64,000 nt of DNA from contig JAJSPD010000007.1 of NCBI GenBank assembly GCA_021307315.1, positions 1,054,001 through 1,118,000 of the forward strand. The letters are read 5' to 3'. This document shows, one piece after another, positions 28,160 through 61,266 of the stretch. Origin of the DNA: Bisporella sp. PMI_857 (taxonomy: Eukaryota; Ascomycota; Leotiomycetes; Helotiales; Helotiaceae). The notes under the pieces were generated by a model, which saw only the letters and a program-made list of their open reading frames with translations, was not told where the DNA came from and searched no databases. The position numbers and the translations under genes were made by a program. Within the stretch, counting starts at the first letter, position 1; every line of letters begins with the position of its first letter.

Positions 28160-28895
28160 ATGCGTCCGCTCCAGTCTGACAACGATGGCAACTTCAGCCT
28201 GACCGAGTTCTTTGAAAGCACCATGCCCAACTATACTATACTGTCACACAGATGGGGAGCGGAGTAAGTCACTTTCAAGGATATGACAGACGGCACGAGT
28301 AAAGTTAAGGCTAGCTACAACAAGATACAGTTCTGCGGAGAACAGGCGAGGCGTGACGGTTTACAAATACTTTTGGGTAGATACCTGCTGTATCGACAAA
28401 TCGAGCAGCGCCGAGCTCTCAGAAGCTATCAACTCGATGTTTTGCTGGTATCAGAAAGCAGCTAGATACTACGTTTATTTATTGGATGTTTCGATACGGG
28501 AGCGGAAAGCAAGTAATATATCTGGCGAGCGTACTTAGGAATCTGCTTTCCGAGCAAGCGAATGGTTTATACGAGGCTGGGCCCTTCAAGAGCTTCTCGC
28601 TCCAGCATCAGTTGCATTCTTCTCCCAAGAACGCGAGCAACTAGGTAATTAGAGAAATCTAGAGTAACAAATCCACGAGATTACTGGAATCCCTACCACG
28701 GCACTTCCAGAATACGTTCTATCCCAATTCGATATGGATAAACGACTCTTATGGGCAAGCCGACGTATCACACGCGGAGAAAACAAGGTATATTCGCAAT
28801 TTGGCATTTTCGATGTCCAAATGCCCCTTCTTTATGGCGAAGGAGAAGTCAAAGTGTTTTAGCGACTCCGAGACGCAATCGACAAACCTTTCAAG
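28160..28895 (+). pseudogene. HET-domain gene relic
   Basis: Reads as the N-terminal HET domain of the same subfamily as the NLR gene at 32427-36689: NDGNFSLTEFF, YTILSHRWG, VTFKDMTDGT, IQFCGEQARRDGLQ, then after a frameshift near 28360 YFWVDTCCIDKS, INSMFCWYQ, ESAFRASEWF, RGWALQELLAP, and GIFDVQMPLLYGEGE. Several stops break it: TAA near 28264, TAG near 28538 (where the family has Trp), and further TAG/TAA around 28650-28860. It is too damaged to function. It lies inside the 4.1-kb TIR element, ~360 bp from the left arm. Confidence 0.88.
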
Positions 28896-32426: not shown

Positions 32427-35400
32427 CTACATGATAAGCTTTCGGCCTTGTTTAATCTGAAAAAATGAAATACTTCCTGACGAATGTCCTAAAACAACAA
32501 TTTCATCCAAAACAGCTTTACAAGTAGGTCGGTAATTAGTAGGTAACCAGAGAATTTTTGTAATACCTTCTACTAGCCAATCATTGGACACGTGTAAAGT
32601 TGGTAGCAGCTTGCCGTCGGGTGAGAAGGCGGTAGAACTGACCCAGTCCGAGTGGGCCTCGAGCGTCTGGAGGGCGGCCCCTGTTGAAGCGTCCCAGAGC
32701 CGCACCGTATTATCGTAAGAGCCCGAGACGACCTGCTTGCCGTCGGGTGAAAAGGCGACAGAACTGACCCCGTCTAAGTGGCCCTCGAGCGTCCGAAGAG
32801 CCGCCCCTGTTGAAGCGTCCCAGAGCTGCACCGTATTGTCGTAAGAGCCCGAAACGACCTGCTTGCCGTCGGGTGAGAAAGCGACAGAAGTAACTGTGTA
32901 CGAGTGGCCCTCGAGCGTTTGGAGAGCCGCTCCTGTTAAAGCGTCCCAAAGCTGCACCGTATTATCGTAAGAGCCCGAGACGACCTGCTTGCTGTCGGGT
33001 GAAAAAGCGACAGAACTGACCCAGTCCGAGTGGCCTTCGAGCATCTGAAAAGCTGCCCCTGTTGAAACGTCCCAGAGCCGCACCGTATTATCATAAGAGC
33101 CCGAGACGATCTGCTTGCCGTCGGGTGAGAAAGCGACAGAACTGACCCAGTCTGAGTGGGCCTCGAGCGTCTGAAGGGCGGGCCTTGTTAAAGCGTCCCA
33201 GAGCCGCACTGTCTTGTCGTAAGAGCCCGAGACAACCTGTTTGCCGTCGGGTGAGAAGGCGACAGAAGTGGCCACGTTCGAGTGGCCCTCAAGCGTCTGG
33301 AGGGCCGCCCCTGTTGAAGCGTCCCAAAGCCGCACTGTCTTGTCGTGAGAGCCCGAGACGACCTGCTTGCCGTCGGGTGAGAAGGCGACAGAACTGACCC
33401 AGTCTAAGTGGCCCTCGAGCGTCCGAAGAGCCGCCCCTGTTCCAGAGTCCCAGAGCCGCACTGTCTTGTCGTAAAAGCCCGAGACGACCTGCTTGCCGTC
33501 GGGTGAAAAAGCAACAGAACTGACCGCTCCCGAGTAGCCCTCGAGCGTCTGGAGGGCCGCCCCTGTTCCAGCGTCCCAGAGTTGTACTGTCTTGTCGTGA
33601 GAGCCCGAGACGACCTGCTTGCTGTCGGGTGAGAAAGCGACAGAAGTGACCGGTCCCGAGTGGCCTTCGAGCGTCTGGAAAGCTGCCCCTGTTGTAGCGT
33701 CCCAGAGCCGCACTGTCTTGTCGTAAGAGCCCGAGACGACCTGCTTGCCGTCGGGTGAAAAAGCGACAAAGGTGACCGCGTTCGAGTGGCCCTCGAGCGT
33801 CTGGAGAGCCGCCCCTGTTCCAGCGTCCCAGAGCCGCACCGTCTTGTCGTGAGAGCCCGAAATGACCTGCTTGCTGTCGGGTGAAAAAGCGACAGAAGTG
33901 ACCGCGTTCGAGTGGCCCTCAAGCGTCTGGAGGACTGCCTCTGTTGCAGCGTCCCAAAGCCGCACCGTCTTGTCGTGAGAGCCCGAGACGACCTGCTTGC
34001 CGTCGGGTGAGAAGGCGACAGAAGTAACCAGTCTCGAGTGGCCCTCAAGCGTTTGGAGCGCCGCACTCCAATGCGCTTGTACGTTAGACTTTCTTGGGAT
34101 CCAGCTGGGGATATCCTTATCAAACGTTACTTTGACAATACTCTTCTCTGGAGAGAAGACAAGGGCTGAACAGTATAATTGAAGAGGCGCCTGTTCAATT
34201 ACTGATCGGTTATACAAGGCAAACTTTTTTGCATCATGTACAAATGCAAGTAGATCAGGACTCTCATCGGCCTTATTAAAGTTAATAAGTCTTTTTTAAT
34301 ATAATAGCTGAATAACGTAAAAAGACTTACCTGAAGCCAATTCTCAAGCTTCCTAATCATAAGTATACCATCTGAAAGGCTTCTCATCAGGCTCAGCGCT
34401 TCAAGCCAGTAAAGAAAACTCTGGCATAAGAAGCTGTAAACCGAGCCACCGTCCTTGAAGTTATTCATTGTGTTCCCTTTAGTTATACAGTCGAGTAGAT
34501 GATCAATCCAATAGAGACAGGAGTATCGTGCAGCGTCTAGTAGATCTGGATCAGGTGGCTTGACTTGGTCGATGGAGATTCCGGGAGCGCTTAGGCTATA
34601 AATGTCACGTCGTAATGTCCTGGACATGACTTGTAGCGACCGCGAGAAGATGGTGTGGTGTGTGTCGTTTGTCCCGGAAGGAAAAATATCATTAGATGCC
34701 TCTTTGAGTAGAAAGTCCTTTGCTGATTGATGGACGAAGTAAACAGTAGTTTCTCGAAGGACCAAAAATGAGCCACAAAGTCCGATGATTACTACTAACG
34801 ACTCATGGTCATCGGCCATATTCTCGAGCGTTTTGACGAAAGAAGTAATTTCCGTTAAAGTAATAGGTCGATACACTATTGATGTAATAGCAAGAATCTG
34901 CTTGCAGAGATCTACATCGTCTGAGTTACAGATTTGACTCATCATTCGCTGATAAAGTGAATCAAGCCCAGGTGGAAATTCGTTCAATTTTGCAAGAGTC
35001 TTCCATCGTGGTACATTCTTCAGATTTTCACAAACCAAAGCTACCCAGAGGAAGGTATCGTTCGCATTCGAGACTAGATGTTGTAATACGGCTACGCGGG
35101 TTCTATCGTCGTAATTCTTTTGATCCGCCAGCTGAAGTGTCTTGTGCTCAATATAAGTACTAACAGCTGCGGAAACGGACTGTTGGTTCAGCTCGAGGCA
35201 TAGTCTCATCATGTGCCCGGCTCTCTCTAGTCGTTCTTCGATGTCCGGCCAGTTGCGGCTAGAAATGACCCACTTGACACGGGGAGAAACAGACGACTTC
35301 TGAACGATAAAGTCTAACAGTTTAGGCAAGCCTGCTGCGCATTCGTCAAGCGCATCGATGATCAAGTAGGTGTTGTTCAAGCCCGGGTCTTGCAGAATGC

Positions 35401-36689
35401 TTGTGAAGACCTCAGACAACGCTACCCATGCATTTGCATCCTCAAAGAGGCCTTTACCAGCGTGATCGTACTTTTTCCGCACATGCGAGAGAAGCGATGG
35501 CTGCTGGTCCACGAGTAGGTAAATAAGACCGCGGAGTACAGCCACCGCATTGTTAATGCGAGAGTCAGTGGCCTGGCAGAAGAAAAACGACAGTAGCGTG
35601 GTTGCGCTCTTGTCTTTAAGCCTCGTCAAGGCGCTCATCTCGTTGATCATACCGCAGAGTAGCATAGTCTTGCCTTTGCCGGGATTGCCTTTGATCCATA
35701 GCACTCGACCCTGTTCGTCATTACGCCATTTGTGAAAGTCAGCATGTTTGAAGATCCACTGGTACGAGTCTTGCAGCAGGCCGCCTTTCATGTCCTCGAT
35801 CCGCTCCTTGTCCTCGCGGGGATCTGTTACCCGTAGGTCTTGTATACAGTTTCGACTCTGGGGGTCAGGCAGATGCGGCTCGTTTTCTTGTAAAAGTGAT
35901 TAGCGTATGGCCAAAGATAAAGCAATTAATCGTGTTTTCACCTGTTAGAGAATTCTGGATCTCCTTCCTGAGCCGTTTGAACGCGTGCTCTCTCCCTTCG
36001 CCATAGATGAGCGGCATATAGACGTCGAAAATGCCCAGCATCGAGTACGCTTTGTCTTCTCCATGTGTCGTCTGACGGACTTCTGCCCATAACAATCGTT
36101 CCTCAACGTCGAACTGAGTTAGAGGGGTTCCTCGAAGCGCTGCGATAGGAATGTTGGTGATCTGGTGAATCCGTTGTTCTAAAGTTTTCTTATCCCCTAG
36201 ACGCTCTCCTTCAAGGGAGAAGAATTGAACTGAAGTTGGGGCGAGGAGTTCTTGAAGGGTCCACCCCCGCGTGAACTATCTGCTAGCCCGAAAAGCCGAC
36301 TCCCAGGGCAGCTGGTGAGAGTTATTGTCATGACTGGAGGTAGATGCTGAGACATCTGATAGATAAACGTAGCATTTATTGGCATCGCGGTACCAGCGAA
36401 ACATTGAGTTGATGGCCCCTGCAGGCTCAGTGTTATTCGATTTGTCAATGCAACATGTATCAACCCAGAAATATTGTATGCCATCCTGGCCAGCCTGTTC
36501 TCCGCAAAACCGGATCTTCTTGTAACCAGCCTTGCTCTTACCAGTGCCATCCTTTAAGTCTTGAAAGGTGACCTCTTCTATATCCTCTCCCCATGTGTGC
36601 GAGAGTATAGCATAGTCGGGAATGTTGTCGCCGACGAAGTTCTTGGTCAGGCTGAACTCGCCGTCATTGTTGCCTTCTAGAAACCGCAT
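32427..36689 (-). pseudogene. HET-NACHT-WD40 (HNWD-type) NLR with one in-frame TAG
   Basis: Three exons (36689-35942, 35886-34331, 34271-32427) form 1,382 codons with a single interruption, TAG at codon 138 (36276-36278). HET domain: YAILSHTWGEDIEEVTFQDL, YFWVDTCCIDKS, WESAFRASR-[TAG]-FTRGWTLQELLAP, GIFDVYMPLIYGEGREHAFKRL. NACHT: Walker A GNPGKGKT (316-323), Walker B TYLIIDALDEC, then WALVCENL-type helical region. The bridge FVHDAKKFALYNRSVIEQAPLQLYCSALVF is the conserved linker before WD40 repeats. This architecture matches Podospora HET-E/HET-D/HET-R proteins, which sense variants through the WD40 part and trigger cell death through HET. The TAG stands where TGG (Trp) is expected and would cut translation to 137 residues; everything downstream looks intact, so it is either a very young pseudogene or a recoded or edited gene. 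Confidence 0.9.
32604..34058 (-). repeat. tandem 126-bp WD40 repeats of the NLR
   Basis: Eleven complete 42-codon repeats plus a twelfth truncated after 23 codons. The consensus LQTLEGHS..V.SVAFSPDGKQ is almost invariant. Differences cluster at the two residues after GHS (RL, NA, NA, GP, GA, DW, NV, DW, DW, YT, DG, DW), at H/Y in GS[HY]D, K/N in D[KN]TV, R/Q in TV[RQ]LWD and the two residues after LWD. The last repeat runs into a non-repeat tail of ~58 residues. Confidence 0.95.
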
Positions 36690-56797: not shown

Positions 56798-59079
56798 ATC
56801 AGCTTATGCTGTAGATCAACCCAGTTTTGGGATGCTACAAAACCGCCAAAATTTGTCGCCTTGTCGCGGTGCAAATAGTCATAAAATATAAATACAAGTT
56901 GCTGAATTGCCCCTTTTCCATCGTCTTCGAGTCGTACCAATCTGAATAAGTTGTATCGCAACTATAGTCTCAGTTCCTCTAAACCTCGGTTATCAGCGTT
57001 AAGCTCTTGGCTATCTATAGGGCTAGAAAGAGTAGCTTTATTTTCATTAACATTACATTAGGATTAATAATTAATGAGGCAGAGTGCCAATGTAGAAGAT
57101 AATAGCAAATGTAATGATGGCACTTGATGGCCGTCTCAACTTTTCCGTACACTGGTAAGGCGCGATGTAATGCAGCTGTCCACATTTCGCTAACGGTTAA
57201 TGCGCTGAAATATGCGACCCAACCCGCATAAAGATCGACAAGAATCTGAGGACCACACTTTTGCGCAGGCCAAATCATTAGCAGTGGGGTCTCTGTGGCG
57301 AGAGCAAGTGCTGTACACTTATCGGTGAGTCTGGGATTACTGGTCCTTCACGAAGGCCGCTCCACTGCTAATAATTTAGCCCTATACCAAAGTAAGCAAG
57401 TGGCACTAGTACTAATGCTTTTTTGATGAAAGGCGTTTATGAGATTTGGACAGGGTAATTATGGAATCTAAGGCTATTTGGCGTTCGTTTCGAACATGCT
57501 CTCTCCAGGCAGGTTTTAAAGCAGTTTTAAGATTAGTAAACAAGGTTGGTGGCCTGATCGACCAGAAGTATAATATACTATTTCTTGCAATACTTCATTC
57601 TGTAGGACATGGGTTGATCCTGAGCCCTCCAATTCCGGGTGCAGGACCGACAGAATCAGGTGATGAATATATCCCTTTGTACCTTCAACCTCCATTGTCT
57701 TTACCCTCCCCTCCCATATTTCTTAACCAGGGTTAACAAGCTGCCACTAGCAACACTAATCTAGAAACGACTTGAATAAAACATAATATTGAAATGATTT
57801 CCAAGCCTGGCAGGTGTGATAACACATCAGCACTTTGCAAGTTGCCAGATAGGTGGATATTCCTTCTTACTTAGCTGTTTGGTACGACAGTACTCACGGA
57901 GGCGGAGAAGGAAAAGCGAAGCAGGTTCACAATTTGAACCACAATCGTACAATAAGCATGACGATCATAAACATCAAAGTCTGTACAATGAAAGCACCAG
58001 ATTCAGGCTTATACAAGCATGGTAGCAGTGAAGAATCGGCCAGTCAGGAGTCCTTACTCGTGCTTTATACAGTACTGTAAAACAGAATAGATATTAGTCG
58101 CATTGTTAATGGTGCGATGGTTGATGGTAGATGGCGGCGGTGGATGGGCGTTGGTGACAATTATGCTACTAGCTTTCCTATAGTGGACAAAGCCGGTCGA
58201 AGGGGTGTGCACAGAACTTTGCAGGACCCTACTGTAGGTATCTCTCAAGGATATGATTGAAACGTCCGACCATTAAGGCCCTGGCATCTCCCAACTTGCA
58301 AAATTGCATGTCGCGATTTTGCGCAACTTTATAATATAACACTTAATTAAATCCCCCCCCCAAAAAGAAACTTGATATATTTACATTTAATAAATCTAAT
58401 TAGAACAAATTGTCTAAATGTATATTTATACTGTATATGTTTTGTTGTAAGTTCTATTTTAAAAAGACAGAAAAACAATTTTCAAGTAAAATCGAGTTTA
58501 GTATGTTTCGCTTAATATAACAGCAAAACAATAATCCAAAAGTAGAAAAGCGCATTAAAAGCCTCGATTAACTATTTCAATAAAGAAAATAGCGGGCATA
58601 TGCCAAGGTGCTAATATTCTACGTTCAATTGTACCCCTCTCAAAAGGACTTGGGGTTGGAACATCTGCCCCGCTAAAATGGCCCAAGCTCGCTTGGAGGG
58701 CTGCCGATTTATGGAAGTCAATATAGATCCAGCTTATACTTGGTATTGAGAATTCTATACGATATACGAGATACACCACTTCTTACTAGACTACCAACCT
58801 AGATACAGATCTTTTATTATAGGCCTGGTGGCATACAGATCGTAACCCTCAACATTACTTTCAGCCGCAGCTGAAAAGTCCGCTGAAATTCATCCACCCC
58901 TTTTGGATGCAAGTCCGCAAAAAATCAAATGCCATGATCTCTTAGCCTTCACGTCTGTTCCTAGGATTTAAATCATCCCAAACCCTGAAAGATTCATCTT
59001 CTCCTCACATGTTTTCAGCTGGTATCAAACCCTTCAAGCGAATAACCACCCACTTCATCACAAGAAAGACGGAGAAGAG
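56798..59079. other. long intergenic region, AT-rich in its right half
   Basis: 2.3 kb without a supportable gene. 58320-58560 is strongly AT-rich with a C9 run near 58354. Short open frames lack motifs. Confidence 0.4.
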
Positions 59080-61266
59080 ATGGAAAGCCAAAAAGACACC
59101 CAGTCTTCCGGCCCCGAACCAGAAGATCTAAATATTGGCAGCCTCAATATTGACGGCCACTCGAACTTAATCGCCCCGGCTACCTTAAAGGCAAAACAAC
59201 TCAACGACGCATCAAAAGACAAATTCGAATATGGAGAACCTCTTAAAAAGGGGTATATACGACTTTTTCAACTTCAACCTGGATCTGGTCATGACCCCAT
59301 AGTCTGCTCCTTGCTCCTTAGTCCCCTCGAAGGTGGCCTAACCCCTTTCGAAGCAGTCTCTTACGTCTGGGGTAGTGAGGATAACCCACATCCCATCACT
59401 TGCAACTGGGTTGTTCCATTCATGGACGACGAGGGACTCGGGTTCGCCTGCCCGCAAGAACTTACGAATAATATGACAGTCACTGATAGCCTCTATCAAT
59501 TGCTGTTACGTATCCGCCATCCCGAAGGTATGCGTACACTCTGGATCGACCAAATCTGCATCGATCAAGACAAGAATCCCGAGAAGCTACAGGAAAAAAT
59601 GGCTCATGTCCGAATGATGGCCGAAGTGTATTCCGCTGCGGATAACGTGCTGATATGGCTTGGAGAAGAGGATTCCGAGACAGCTACAGCGTTTGGAATG
59701 ATGAAATGGGTGGCAGTAACAATTGAAATGTCAGAACAAGAACTCGGATCCTTGATAAGCTACCTGGCAACAACAGAGGACTTCTCAAACGATGAAACGG
59801 AAGATCTGGTTGGGCACAAACAAAACATGGAGCATTTAAAATCTCTTCTCGTCCATGTTCAGCCAGCTGTTGTCACTGGAATGGACGATCCAGCTTCCCC
59901 AAATAGCACACACATGACTCTACTTGGAAGCAGAGCCCTAGCGGCTCTTCTCGAAAAGCCTTGGTTTACAAGAAGCTGGACATTTCAAGAAACAGTCTCA
60001 GCAAGGAGCGCAACGATCGTGTGTGGTTCCCACGAAGTAAAATGGGACATCCTCTACCAAGCATGCAAATCCATGCAAGCCCGACGAATGTTTGTAAAAG
60101 GAGCTTATGATAGGATCAACATGGCCTTCGTTGTTGAGAGCACAGTAAAAAAAGGAGATTTACGACGGGACTGGGCTAGATTGAAGCGCATGAGCAGCGG
60201 CGATCAAACCTCAAACAGTCCCGACGATTCAACATGGCTCCGCTCGGGAGTCTTCCTTGAACAAAGAAAGATCAAACGCCTACTCCCCCTCCTCCGATCA
60301 ACAGCCTGCAAAGACCCACGCGATAAAGTCCTCGCCATCCTTGGAATCTCCCATGATGACAACCGCTGGATCGTATTTCCAGATTACGAATGGGATGTCG
60401 TCAATCTCTACACTTCCATTGTCTCATACTGGATCTGGGGCGTTGGAAAAATGGACATTTCGTTCTTAAACCATATTCAGGATTCAAATCCTAAGCACAA
60501 ACTTCCTTCTTGGGTCCCTGACTGGAGTACCCCTGTAATTGCAACTCCGCTCATAGACCTCGCCGACTTCTCAGCCTCAGGAGATACAGTACCTAATGTT
60601 TTCATGGACGAGATAGATTACCTGGGTGATCTCGCACCCTTCCCTCATTTCCCACCACTAGCCATAGAAGGCTTTTTCATCTTGAAGGTCCAAGATGTCG
60701 AAACCGACCTTACGAATTACGAACGCCATGCAGAGATAATGAGTCAGTTCGAGAATCCATATCCGACGACGGAGCTATCATATCTGGAAGCGTATCAAAA
60801 AACAGTTTATCCTAAGATCCCAGAGGGTTTTCGGCCCCTCGAACGAGCAGAGGGGACGCCGAGTTTCTGGGAGTACACCAATAACCACAGCCCCAAAACC
60901 ATACCATCATCACCAGAGTCCACCACTACCACCCAGCAACACTACACAGCACAAGACTTGCAATCCCAACTCCCAGACCTTTCAACTCCCTCTGACCCCA
61001 ACTCCCAAATCCAGCACCACACGCGTGCCCCTGGTCCAGGCCGCGCCTTCTTTGTCTCCACAACAGGCTTTATAGGACTTTGCTCCAAGGACACTATCCC
61101 AGGAGACGAGATCTATATTTTGCTGGGAGCAGCGACGCCCTTCGTGATTAGGGTTCCTGAAGATAAAGTCGTGAGGTTTGTGGGGGAGTGTTTTGTCTTG
61201 GGGCTTATGCATGGGGAGGCGGTTGAGGGGAGGCCGACGCAAAGGACTGTCGTGATTATGCGGTAG
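59080..61266 (+). CDS. HET-domain protein
   Basis: Single exon, 728 residues. The heterokaryon-incompatibility domain spans ~60-330: YIRLFQLQPG (59-68), FEAVSYVWGSEDNPHPI (90-106), LWIDQICIDQDK (154-165), VYSAADNVLIWLGEE (183-197) and PWFTRSWTFQE. The C-terminal part (DPRDKVLAILGIS, VNLYTSIVSYWIWG, LPSWVPDWSTP, then a Thr/Ser/Pro-rich insert and GLCSKDTIPGDEIYILLGAATPFVIR) is the common C-terminal layout of fungal HET-6-like proteins. HET domains trigger cell death after recognition of non-self. The frame is entirely intact, unlike the two HET genes at 28 and 36 kb. Partner genes are not evident except a TPR relic 280 bp downstream. Confidence 0.93.
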   Translation: MESQKDTQSSGPEPEDLNIGSLNIDGHSNLIAPATLKAKQLNDASKDKFEYGEPLKKGYIRLFQLQPGSGHDPIVCSLLLSPLEGGLTPFEAVSYVWGSEDNPHPITCNWVVPFMDDEGLGFACPQELTNNMTVTDSLYQLLLRIRHPEGMRTLWIDQICIDQDKNPEKLQEKMAHVRMMAEVYSAADNVLIWLGEEDSETATAFGMMKWVAVTIEMSEQELGSLISYLATTEDFSNDETEDLVGHKQNMEHLKSLLVHVQPAVVTGMDDPASPNSTHMTLLGSRALAALLEKPWFTRSWTFQETVSARSATIVCGSHEVKWDILYQACKSMQARRMFVKGAYDRINMAFVVESTVKKGDLRRDWARLKRMSSGDQTSNSPDDSTWLRSGVFLEQRKIKRLLPLLRSTACKDPRDKVLAILGISHDDNRWIVFPDYEWDVVNLYTSIVSYWIWGVGKMDISFLNHIQDSNPKHKLPSWVPDWSTPVIATPLIDLADFSASGDTVPNVFMDEIDYLGDLAPFPHFPPLAIEGFFILKVQDVETDLTNYERHAEIMSQFENPYPTTELSYLEAYQKTVYPKIPEGFRPLERAEGTPSFWEYTNNHSPKTIPSSPESTTTTQQHYTAQDLQSQLPDLSTPSDPNSQIQHHTRAPGPGRAFFVSTTGFIGLCSKDTIPGDEIYILLGAATPFVIRVPEDKVVRFVGECFVLGLMHGEAVEGRPTQRTVVIMR

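Follow-up and report, generated by a model that had tools for sequence, protein, structure and literature searches.

The closest described counterparts of the gene analysed here are the hnwd genes of Podospora anserina (het-e, het-d and het-r), which likewise combine a HET domain, a NACHT domain and a WD40 array of highly similar units, and of which inactive alleles are known (PMC2873952; papers are cited by PMC identifier, each for the part of its text that was available). Several public relatives of the present gene carry the names HET-E or HET-D. It differs from the Podospora genes in belonging to a helotialean fungus with a very large HET repertoire and in having a stop codon in its HET exon, and its role in allorecognition is putative. 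Two further systems resemble it in the state of the reading frame. The pseudogenised het-Vb of Neurospora has taxon-specific premature stops that annotation bridges by means of unsupported introns (PMC9262711), although this is another gene in another species. In Fusarium graminearum, the genes that undergo premature-stop-correction (PSC) editing (PUK1, AMD1, FgAMA1 and FgRID) likewise have a frame that is open but for a TAG, and UAG codons in Fusarium are edited to give full-length proteins (PMC11156358; a second source is PMC11169179). However, the Fusarium genes are those of a sordariomycete and are backed by RNA evidence (PMC11156358), whereas the Bisporella gene is that of a leotiomycete and is known from DNA alone.

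An HNWD-type gene with a TAG in its HET exon

The window, by which we mean the whole stretch of 64,000 nt that was analysed, comes from Bisporella sp. PMI_857 (Leotiomycetes, Helotiales) and contains a HET-NACHT-WD40 (HNWD-type) gene of three exons on the minus strand (36689-32427; Table 1). From its ATG the spliced frame consists of 137 codons, a TAG and 1,244 further codons up to the terminal stop, and with the two introns removed this TAG is the sole in-frame stop of a 1,382-codon frame, as a preliminary description of the locus had stated. The domain order HET, NACHT, WD40 is that of the HNWD type and the WD40 units are highly alike, exon 3 having 12 AFSPD repeat cores with eleven 126-nt spacings and the eleven 126-nt units being 80-94 % identical (mean 86 %). 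When the piece that precedes the TAG was compared with Pfam, the HET match covered profile positions 1-106 of 146; the part of exon 1 that follows the TAG gave no Pfam match by itself. A search by sequence for solved HET structures found none at E-values up to 1.

Table 1. Positions in the window of the parts of the HNWD-type gene and of a nearby HET relic
Feature	Position	Strand	Remarks
Exon 1, HET domain	35942..36689	-	ATG 36689-36687; Pfam HET, residues 26-129 of the 137-residue pre-TAG piece
In-frame TAG, codon 138, conserved HET-domain Trp	36276..36278	-	...FRASR-[TAG]-FTRGWTLQELL
Putative 84-nt intron, GTCATG..TTCAAG	36251..36334	-	In P0128; passes over the TAG and 28 HET-core codons
Intron 1, 55 nt, GTGAAA..ACAAG	35887..35941	-	Also in public model P0128
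Exon 2, NACHT NTPase region, P-loop GNPGKGKT	34331..35886	-	Pfam NPHP3_N and NACHT
Intron 2, 59 nt, GTAAGT..ATAAG	34272..34330	-	Read from the frame and the public model
Exon 3, WD40 array, then terminal stop	32427..34271	-	Pfam WD40
Degraded second HET relic	28160..28880	+	Two pieces in different frames, five in-frame stops

The TAG stands where HET domains have a tryptophan, again as first described: Trp occupies the site in 119 of 120 public relatives (the best 120 of 7,942), the sole relative without it being P0128, the gene's own public model, in which the site is deleted. Trp is also present at this position in the HET exon of a near-identical paralog on contig C13. The change is a single G-to-A of the CpA/TpG class that turned a HET-domain Trp codon into TAG in an otherwise open HNWD gene. 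It is a real feature, yet not an improbable one, since seven of the 28 single C-to-T or G-to-A changes that make a stop in exon 1 are Trp-to-TAG, so that about a quarter of random nonsense transitions would be expected at such sites. The earlier statement that no other damage is present holds for stops and frameshifts but not for missense changes. The window copy carries L89P and E91G, and 27 of 27 intact paralogs agree in the middle codon bases that these substitutions changed. Of the 119 public relatives with a residue at position 89, 118 have L or V and the single Pro is that of P0128 itself; position 91 varies more, with E in 42 of the 56 own-genome entries shown and in 107 of 119 public relatives.

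The reading that we favour, at a probability of roughly three in four, is an ordinary one: a young nonsense mutation that produced a null allele of an expendable HNWD-type allorecognition NLR, and not a switch that is corrected by editing. A recent point mutation would have changed the conserved Trp codon to TAG in one of two near-identical paralogs, and translation would end after 137 residues, without reaching the NACHT or WD40 region. As two splice junctions lie downstream of the stop, degradation of the transcript is probable. The strain would thus have a null allele of a putative allorecognition NLR, of which we infer the null effect, the selective reason and the youth; a young mutation had already been proposed and is plausible with a frame that is otherwise open. 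Allorecognition NLR genes are a class that tolerates loss. The TAG predicts that the window gene would have no activity in triggering incompatibility. The single stop in so long a frame, the apparent purifying selection on the pair of paralogs, the apparent relaxation of the HET exon and the frequency of stops in the family all support a null allele, and there is a precedent in het genes with lineage-specific premature stops that have been taken as putative pseudogenes (PMC9262711). Three features argue against it. Apart from the TAG the frame is intact and keeps all 12 WD40 cores, as would that of a gene used conditionally; the changes in exon 2 are like those of a gene constrained until lately; and Trp-to-TAG changes somewhat exceed the prediction from codon counts. 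The last two are taken up below.

The public gene model and the C13 paralog

The public protein model P0128 (1,354 aa) matches the window exactly if an 84-nt intron is allowed in the HET exon, so the TAG might lie inside a real intron and the gene might encode an in-frame protein that lacks the HET core. The donor GT is present in the window copy, where the C13 paralog has AAT instead. However, the donor reads GTCATG, and among the 11 further introns that we read in public models not one has C at +3 and 10 are 46-61 nt long. Moreover, relatives have coding sequence in the 84-nt region, whose removal deletes a Trp-rich core of the HET domain with Trp 138, Trp 143 and Gln 146, which are common to 118-119 of 120 relatives (best of 7,942). 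Many in-frame GT-AG or GC-AG pairs could remove the TAG, the P0128 intron being one of them, and gene models of Neurospora het genes are known to skirt premature stops with unsupported introns (PMC9262711). We therefore consider a genuine intron highly improbable, and the 84-nt intron of P0128 is probably an annotation repair. Where an unlikely intron in a public model hides a broken gene, the number of functional NLRs in such genomes may be overestimated. An error of the assembly at this base has only the slightest chance of being the explanation: although the public model comes from the same assembly and hence provides no independent check of the base, the window copy differs from the C13 copy at many nearby places and is thus not a collapsed repeat.

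The C13 paralog is 93.7 % identical to the window gene over 3.4 kb, which makes the gene repeated DNA; its HET exon is 94 % identical in protein to that of the window copy, its Trp is kept and its exons are open. It has six AFSPD WD40 cores against the 12 of the window copy. Since incompatibility in Podospora has been reported to need at least ten WD40 units (PMC2873952), we suggest by analogy that a required half may be missing from each Bisporella copy, the C13 copy having an intact HET domain with a short array and the window copy a long array with a broken HET domain.

Outside the WD40 part the two copies differ by 86 transitions and 19 other changes, so that transitions dominate. With pairwise dN/dS at about 0.35 for exon 1 and 0.20 for exon 2, the pair as a whole appears to be under purifying selection after duplication. 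When changes were polarised by a majority (1.5-fold) among paralogs, the exon 1 branch of the window copy had seven nonsynonymous and two synonymous changes, with five more left unpolarised. Its HET exon looks relaxed in view of this 7:2 branch, of L89P and E91G at otherwise fixed middle bases, and of a Pro89 that is unique to P0128. The exon 2 branch of the window copy has 10 nonsynonymous and 10 synonymous changes, and it is this ratio that resembles a gene constrained until lately.

Stops in the HET family and the type of change

The genome is rich in HET genes, with at least 150 Pfam HET matches above the cut-off (150 of 729 candidates scored). Among the listed part of 151 HET matches, at least 28 loci contain stops (36 TAG, 11 TAA and 9 TGA); the duplicate loci L006, L007, L035 and L036 were set aside ahead of one of the further counts. 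We examined 22 of these 28 loci, the remaining six each carrying two or more stops. The 22 loci have 33 stops, of which 14 are Trp-to-TAG, seven Gln-to-TAG (in five columns), three Gln-to-TAA and three Arg-to-TGA, with six lacking an assignment (L064 161, L065 241, L078 91, L076 229, and 167 and 238 of the HET relic, whose N-terminal piece, 28160-28366 with one TAA, stands outside this count). For thirteen of the 14 Trp-to-TAG changes most of the aligned set has Trp at the site; for the other (L080, column 56) only the near relatives of the locus do. Seventeen loci have one stop in the HET match, of which nine are Trp-to-TAG, three at Gln and two at Arg codons, and three are without assignment; 'one stop' refers here to the HET match, the NACHT part of L017 having an extra TAG and a frame break and that of L064 also a TAG. 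The ratio of nine Trp to three Gln in single-stop loci lies somewhat above the expectation from codon counts (post hoc binomial p 0.03, for a model in which only CpA sites change), which tells slightly against a plain null allele in the window.

Beyond the 22 loci, Trp-to-TGA was found in L019, L026, L033 and L034 and Trp-to-TAG in L015, L018 and L032, the Trp of L032, L033 and L034 being assigned by eye from HET motifs. L015 has two Trp-to-TAG changes in its NACHT part, shows no RIP indices and has a frame shift in its WD40 array (placed by eye), and we take it to be a plain pseudogene. The stops at Gln codons, the Trp-to-TGA changes in HET and NACHT loci and the frame-shifted L015 with its two Trp-to-TAG changes all point to mutation, and the pattern in the family fits recurrent loss through C-to-T change together with a small, unexplained excess at Trp. 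An expanded HET/NLR repertoire can decay in this way, many members carrying nonsense changes, often Trp-to-TAG, that mimic edited genes.

We note two cases of shared stops. In the loci L024, L071, L072 and L073 a TAG replaces one and the same Trp (W99, in the motif NSMFR-W-Y), which is either a mutational hotspot or something else. The paralogs L067, L079 and L081 have a common TAG at a Gln position (column 43) and appear to be broken copies that were duplicated once the stop had arisen.

The change at the window site had been described as RIP-type, and the TAG might come from RIP, or from some milder C-to-T process, at work on a duplicated, repeat-bearing gene. Trp-to-TAG does belong to the CpA-to-TpA type, and the stops in the HET family as a whole fit a CpA-only model (chi-square p 0.11) but not a model of uniform C-to-T change (p 0.0016). 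The segment 32501-33000, in the WD40 array, is the only 500-base step of the window with a product index of at least 1.1 and a substrate index of at most 0.75; when the substrate limit is loosened to at most 0.9, six of 255 steps pass, at least four of them in the array. Exon 3 has a TpA/ApT of 1.38 and a substrate index of 0.93, at a G+C content of 56 % and with repeated codons that confound the index; RIP would lower the G+C content. Elsewhere in the genome L018 is RIP-like (TpA/ApT 1.38, substrate 0.78, G+C 35 %), transitions on the C13 branch of exon 2 are 17 C>T or G>A against four in reverse, the loci L008 and L009 differ at seven bases in about 3.2 kb, all of them A or T in L008, and genes of the DNA methylase family are present.

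The HET exon itself does not bear the marks of such a process. Its TpA/ApT of 0.69 and substrate index of 1.26 are those of 28 intact exons (0.72, SD 0.09, and 1.26, SD 0.11). Polarised with outgroups, the window branch of exon 2 has nine C>T or G>A changes against seven T>C or A>G (16 sites unpolarised), and the polarised changes on its exon 1 branch are two G>A, three A>G, three T>C and one G>C. Nor are the transitions between the two copies enriched at CpA (22 of 86, about 24 being expected from composition), and a CpA-biased excess of C-to-T was not found in the HET and NACHT exons. Indices, directions and contexts thus give no support to RIP as the cause of change in the HET exon, although the WD40 array does score as RIP-like. 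A single change of the right type would be compatible with RIP, which we regard as an unlikely source of the TAG.

Recoding of UAG and neighbouring loci

The preliminary description had also raised A-to-I mRNA editing, which would turn UAG into UGG, bring back the Trp at some stage and make the NLR stage-gated. Fungal A-to-I editing favours U at -1 and hairpin loops (PMC11156358). The U is present at this site, by definition of TAG; none of the stops assigned in the 22 loci is Trp-to-TGA; and of the four loci with a TAG at W99 no pair exceeds 71 % protein identity, some of the overlaps being short. The loop is less convincing: depending on the segment that is folded, the site in the gene is paired, unpaired or in a loop. 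With 20-nt flanks, five of 10 Trp-to-TAG sites fell in hairpin loops against 803 of 1621 other U-A sites, and with 30-nt flanks three of 10 against 607 of 1621, loops thus being no more frequent at the Trp-to-TAG sites than at the others; with 15-nt flanks the count was six of 10, a figure that has no U-A baseline (folding covered 10 of the 14 Trp-to-TAG events).

The host also argues against editing. In Leotiomycetes mRNA editing was not found, according to the available text of PMC11087585, in which the Sclerotinia orthologue of Ame1, as tested, neither bound Tad3 nor replaced the Ame1 of Fusarium. The Bisporella genome has three loci of the DUF726 (Ame1) family, on C274, C211 and C225. The one that was read, on C274, has AKSRADKAG and hence AK or KS rather than MV, where the residues were assigned by counting back from the serine of the GYSLG motif and not by alignment to Ame1. 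The available part of PMC12258605 holds nothing on mRNA editing in Leotiomycetes, and that of PMC6794485, which reports editing in Sordaria along with new HET-E homologues, mentions no edited HET gene. When a PUK1-like kinase with a tandem TAG was sought with PF00069, the kinase matches ran through introns.

Editing, moreover, would leave L89P and E91G in place after restoring the Trp, and it would not account for the four loci with Trp-to-TGA or for the several with Gln stops. With a leotiomycete host, an unstable loop state and such stops in the same families, the suggestion finds no support, and we hold it to be as improbable as the intron. A wider form, in which UAG is recoded to Trp, by A-to-I editing or by a suppressor tRNA, across a set of HET/NLR receptors that are silent in hyphae and on in one tissue, is also very improbable, if marginally less so; its trace would be the four W99 loci and the excess of Trp changes in loci with a single stop. 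As proof of recoding, that excess is strong against the uniform model and weak against the CpA-only model, and it is undercut by the Trp-to-TGA loci, the Gln stops, the Gln-TAG shared by L067, L079 and L081, and the frame shift of L015. If RNA showed recoding, mRNA editing would extend to Leotiomycetes and the gene would be a stage-gated immune receptor.

The degraded HET relic of Table 1 lies about 7 kb from the TAG, and its main piece has 84 % DNA identity to a stop-free paralog, L056. Two more HET-domain genes are found nearby, at 58972-61266 of the window (+) and at C252:1121189-1121635, so that the region is a loose HET cluster. Elsewhere, contigs C241 and C263 share seven pairs of matches with identical scores, in mirror order and over about 570 kb, which points either to a scaffold that was assembled twice or to a large duplication of very recent date. 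The loci L008 (on C38) and L009 (on C10) are HNWD-type genes with unlike flanks beyond about 3.2 kb of near-identity; at all seven differing sites L009 has G or C, two of the seven are in a CpA context, and the pair reads as a recent duplication with one-sided change.
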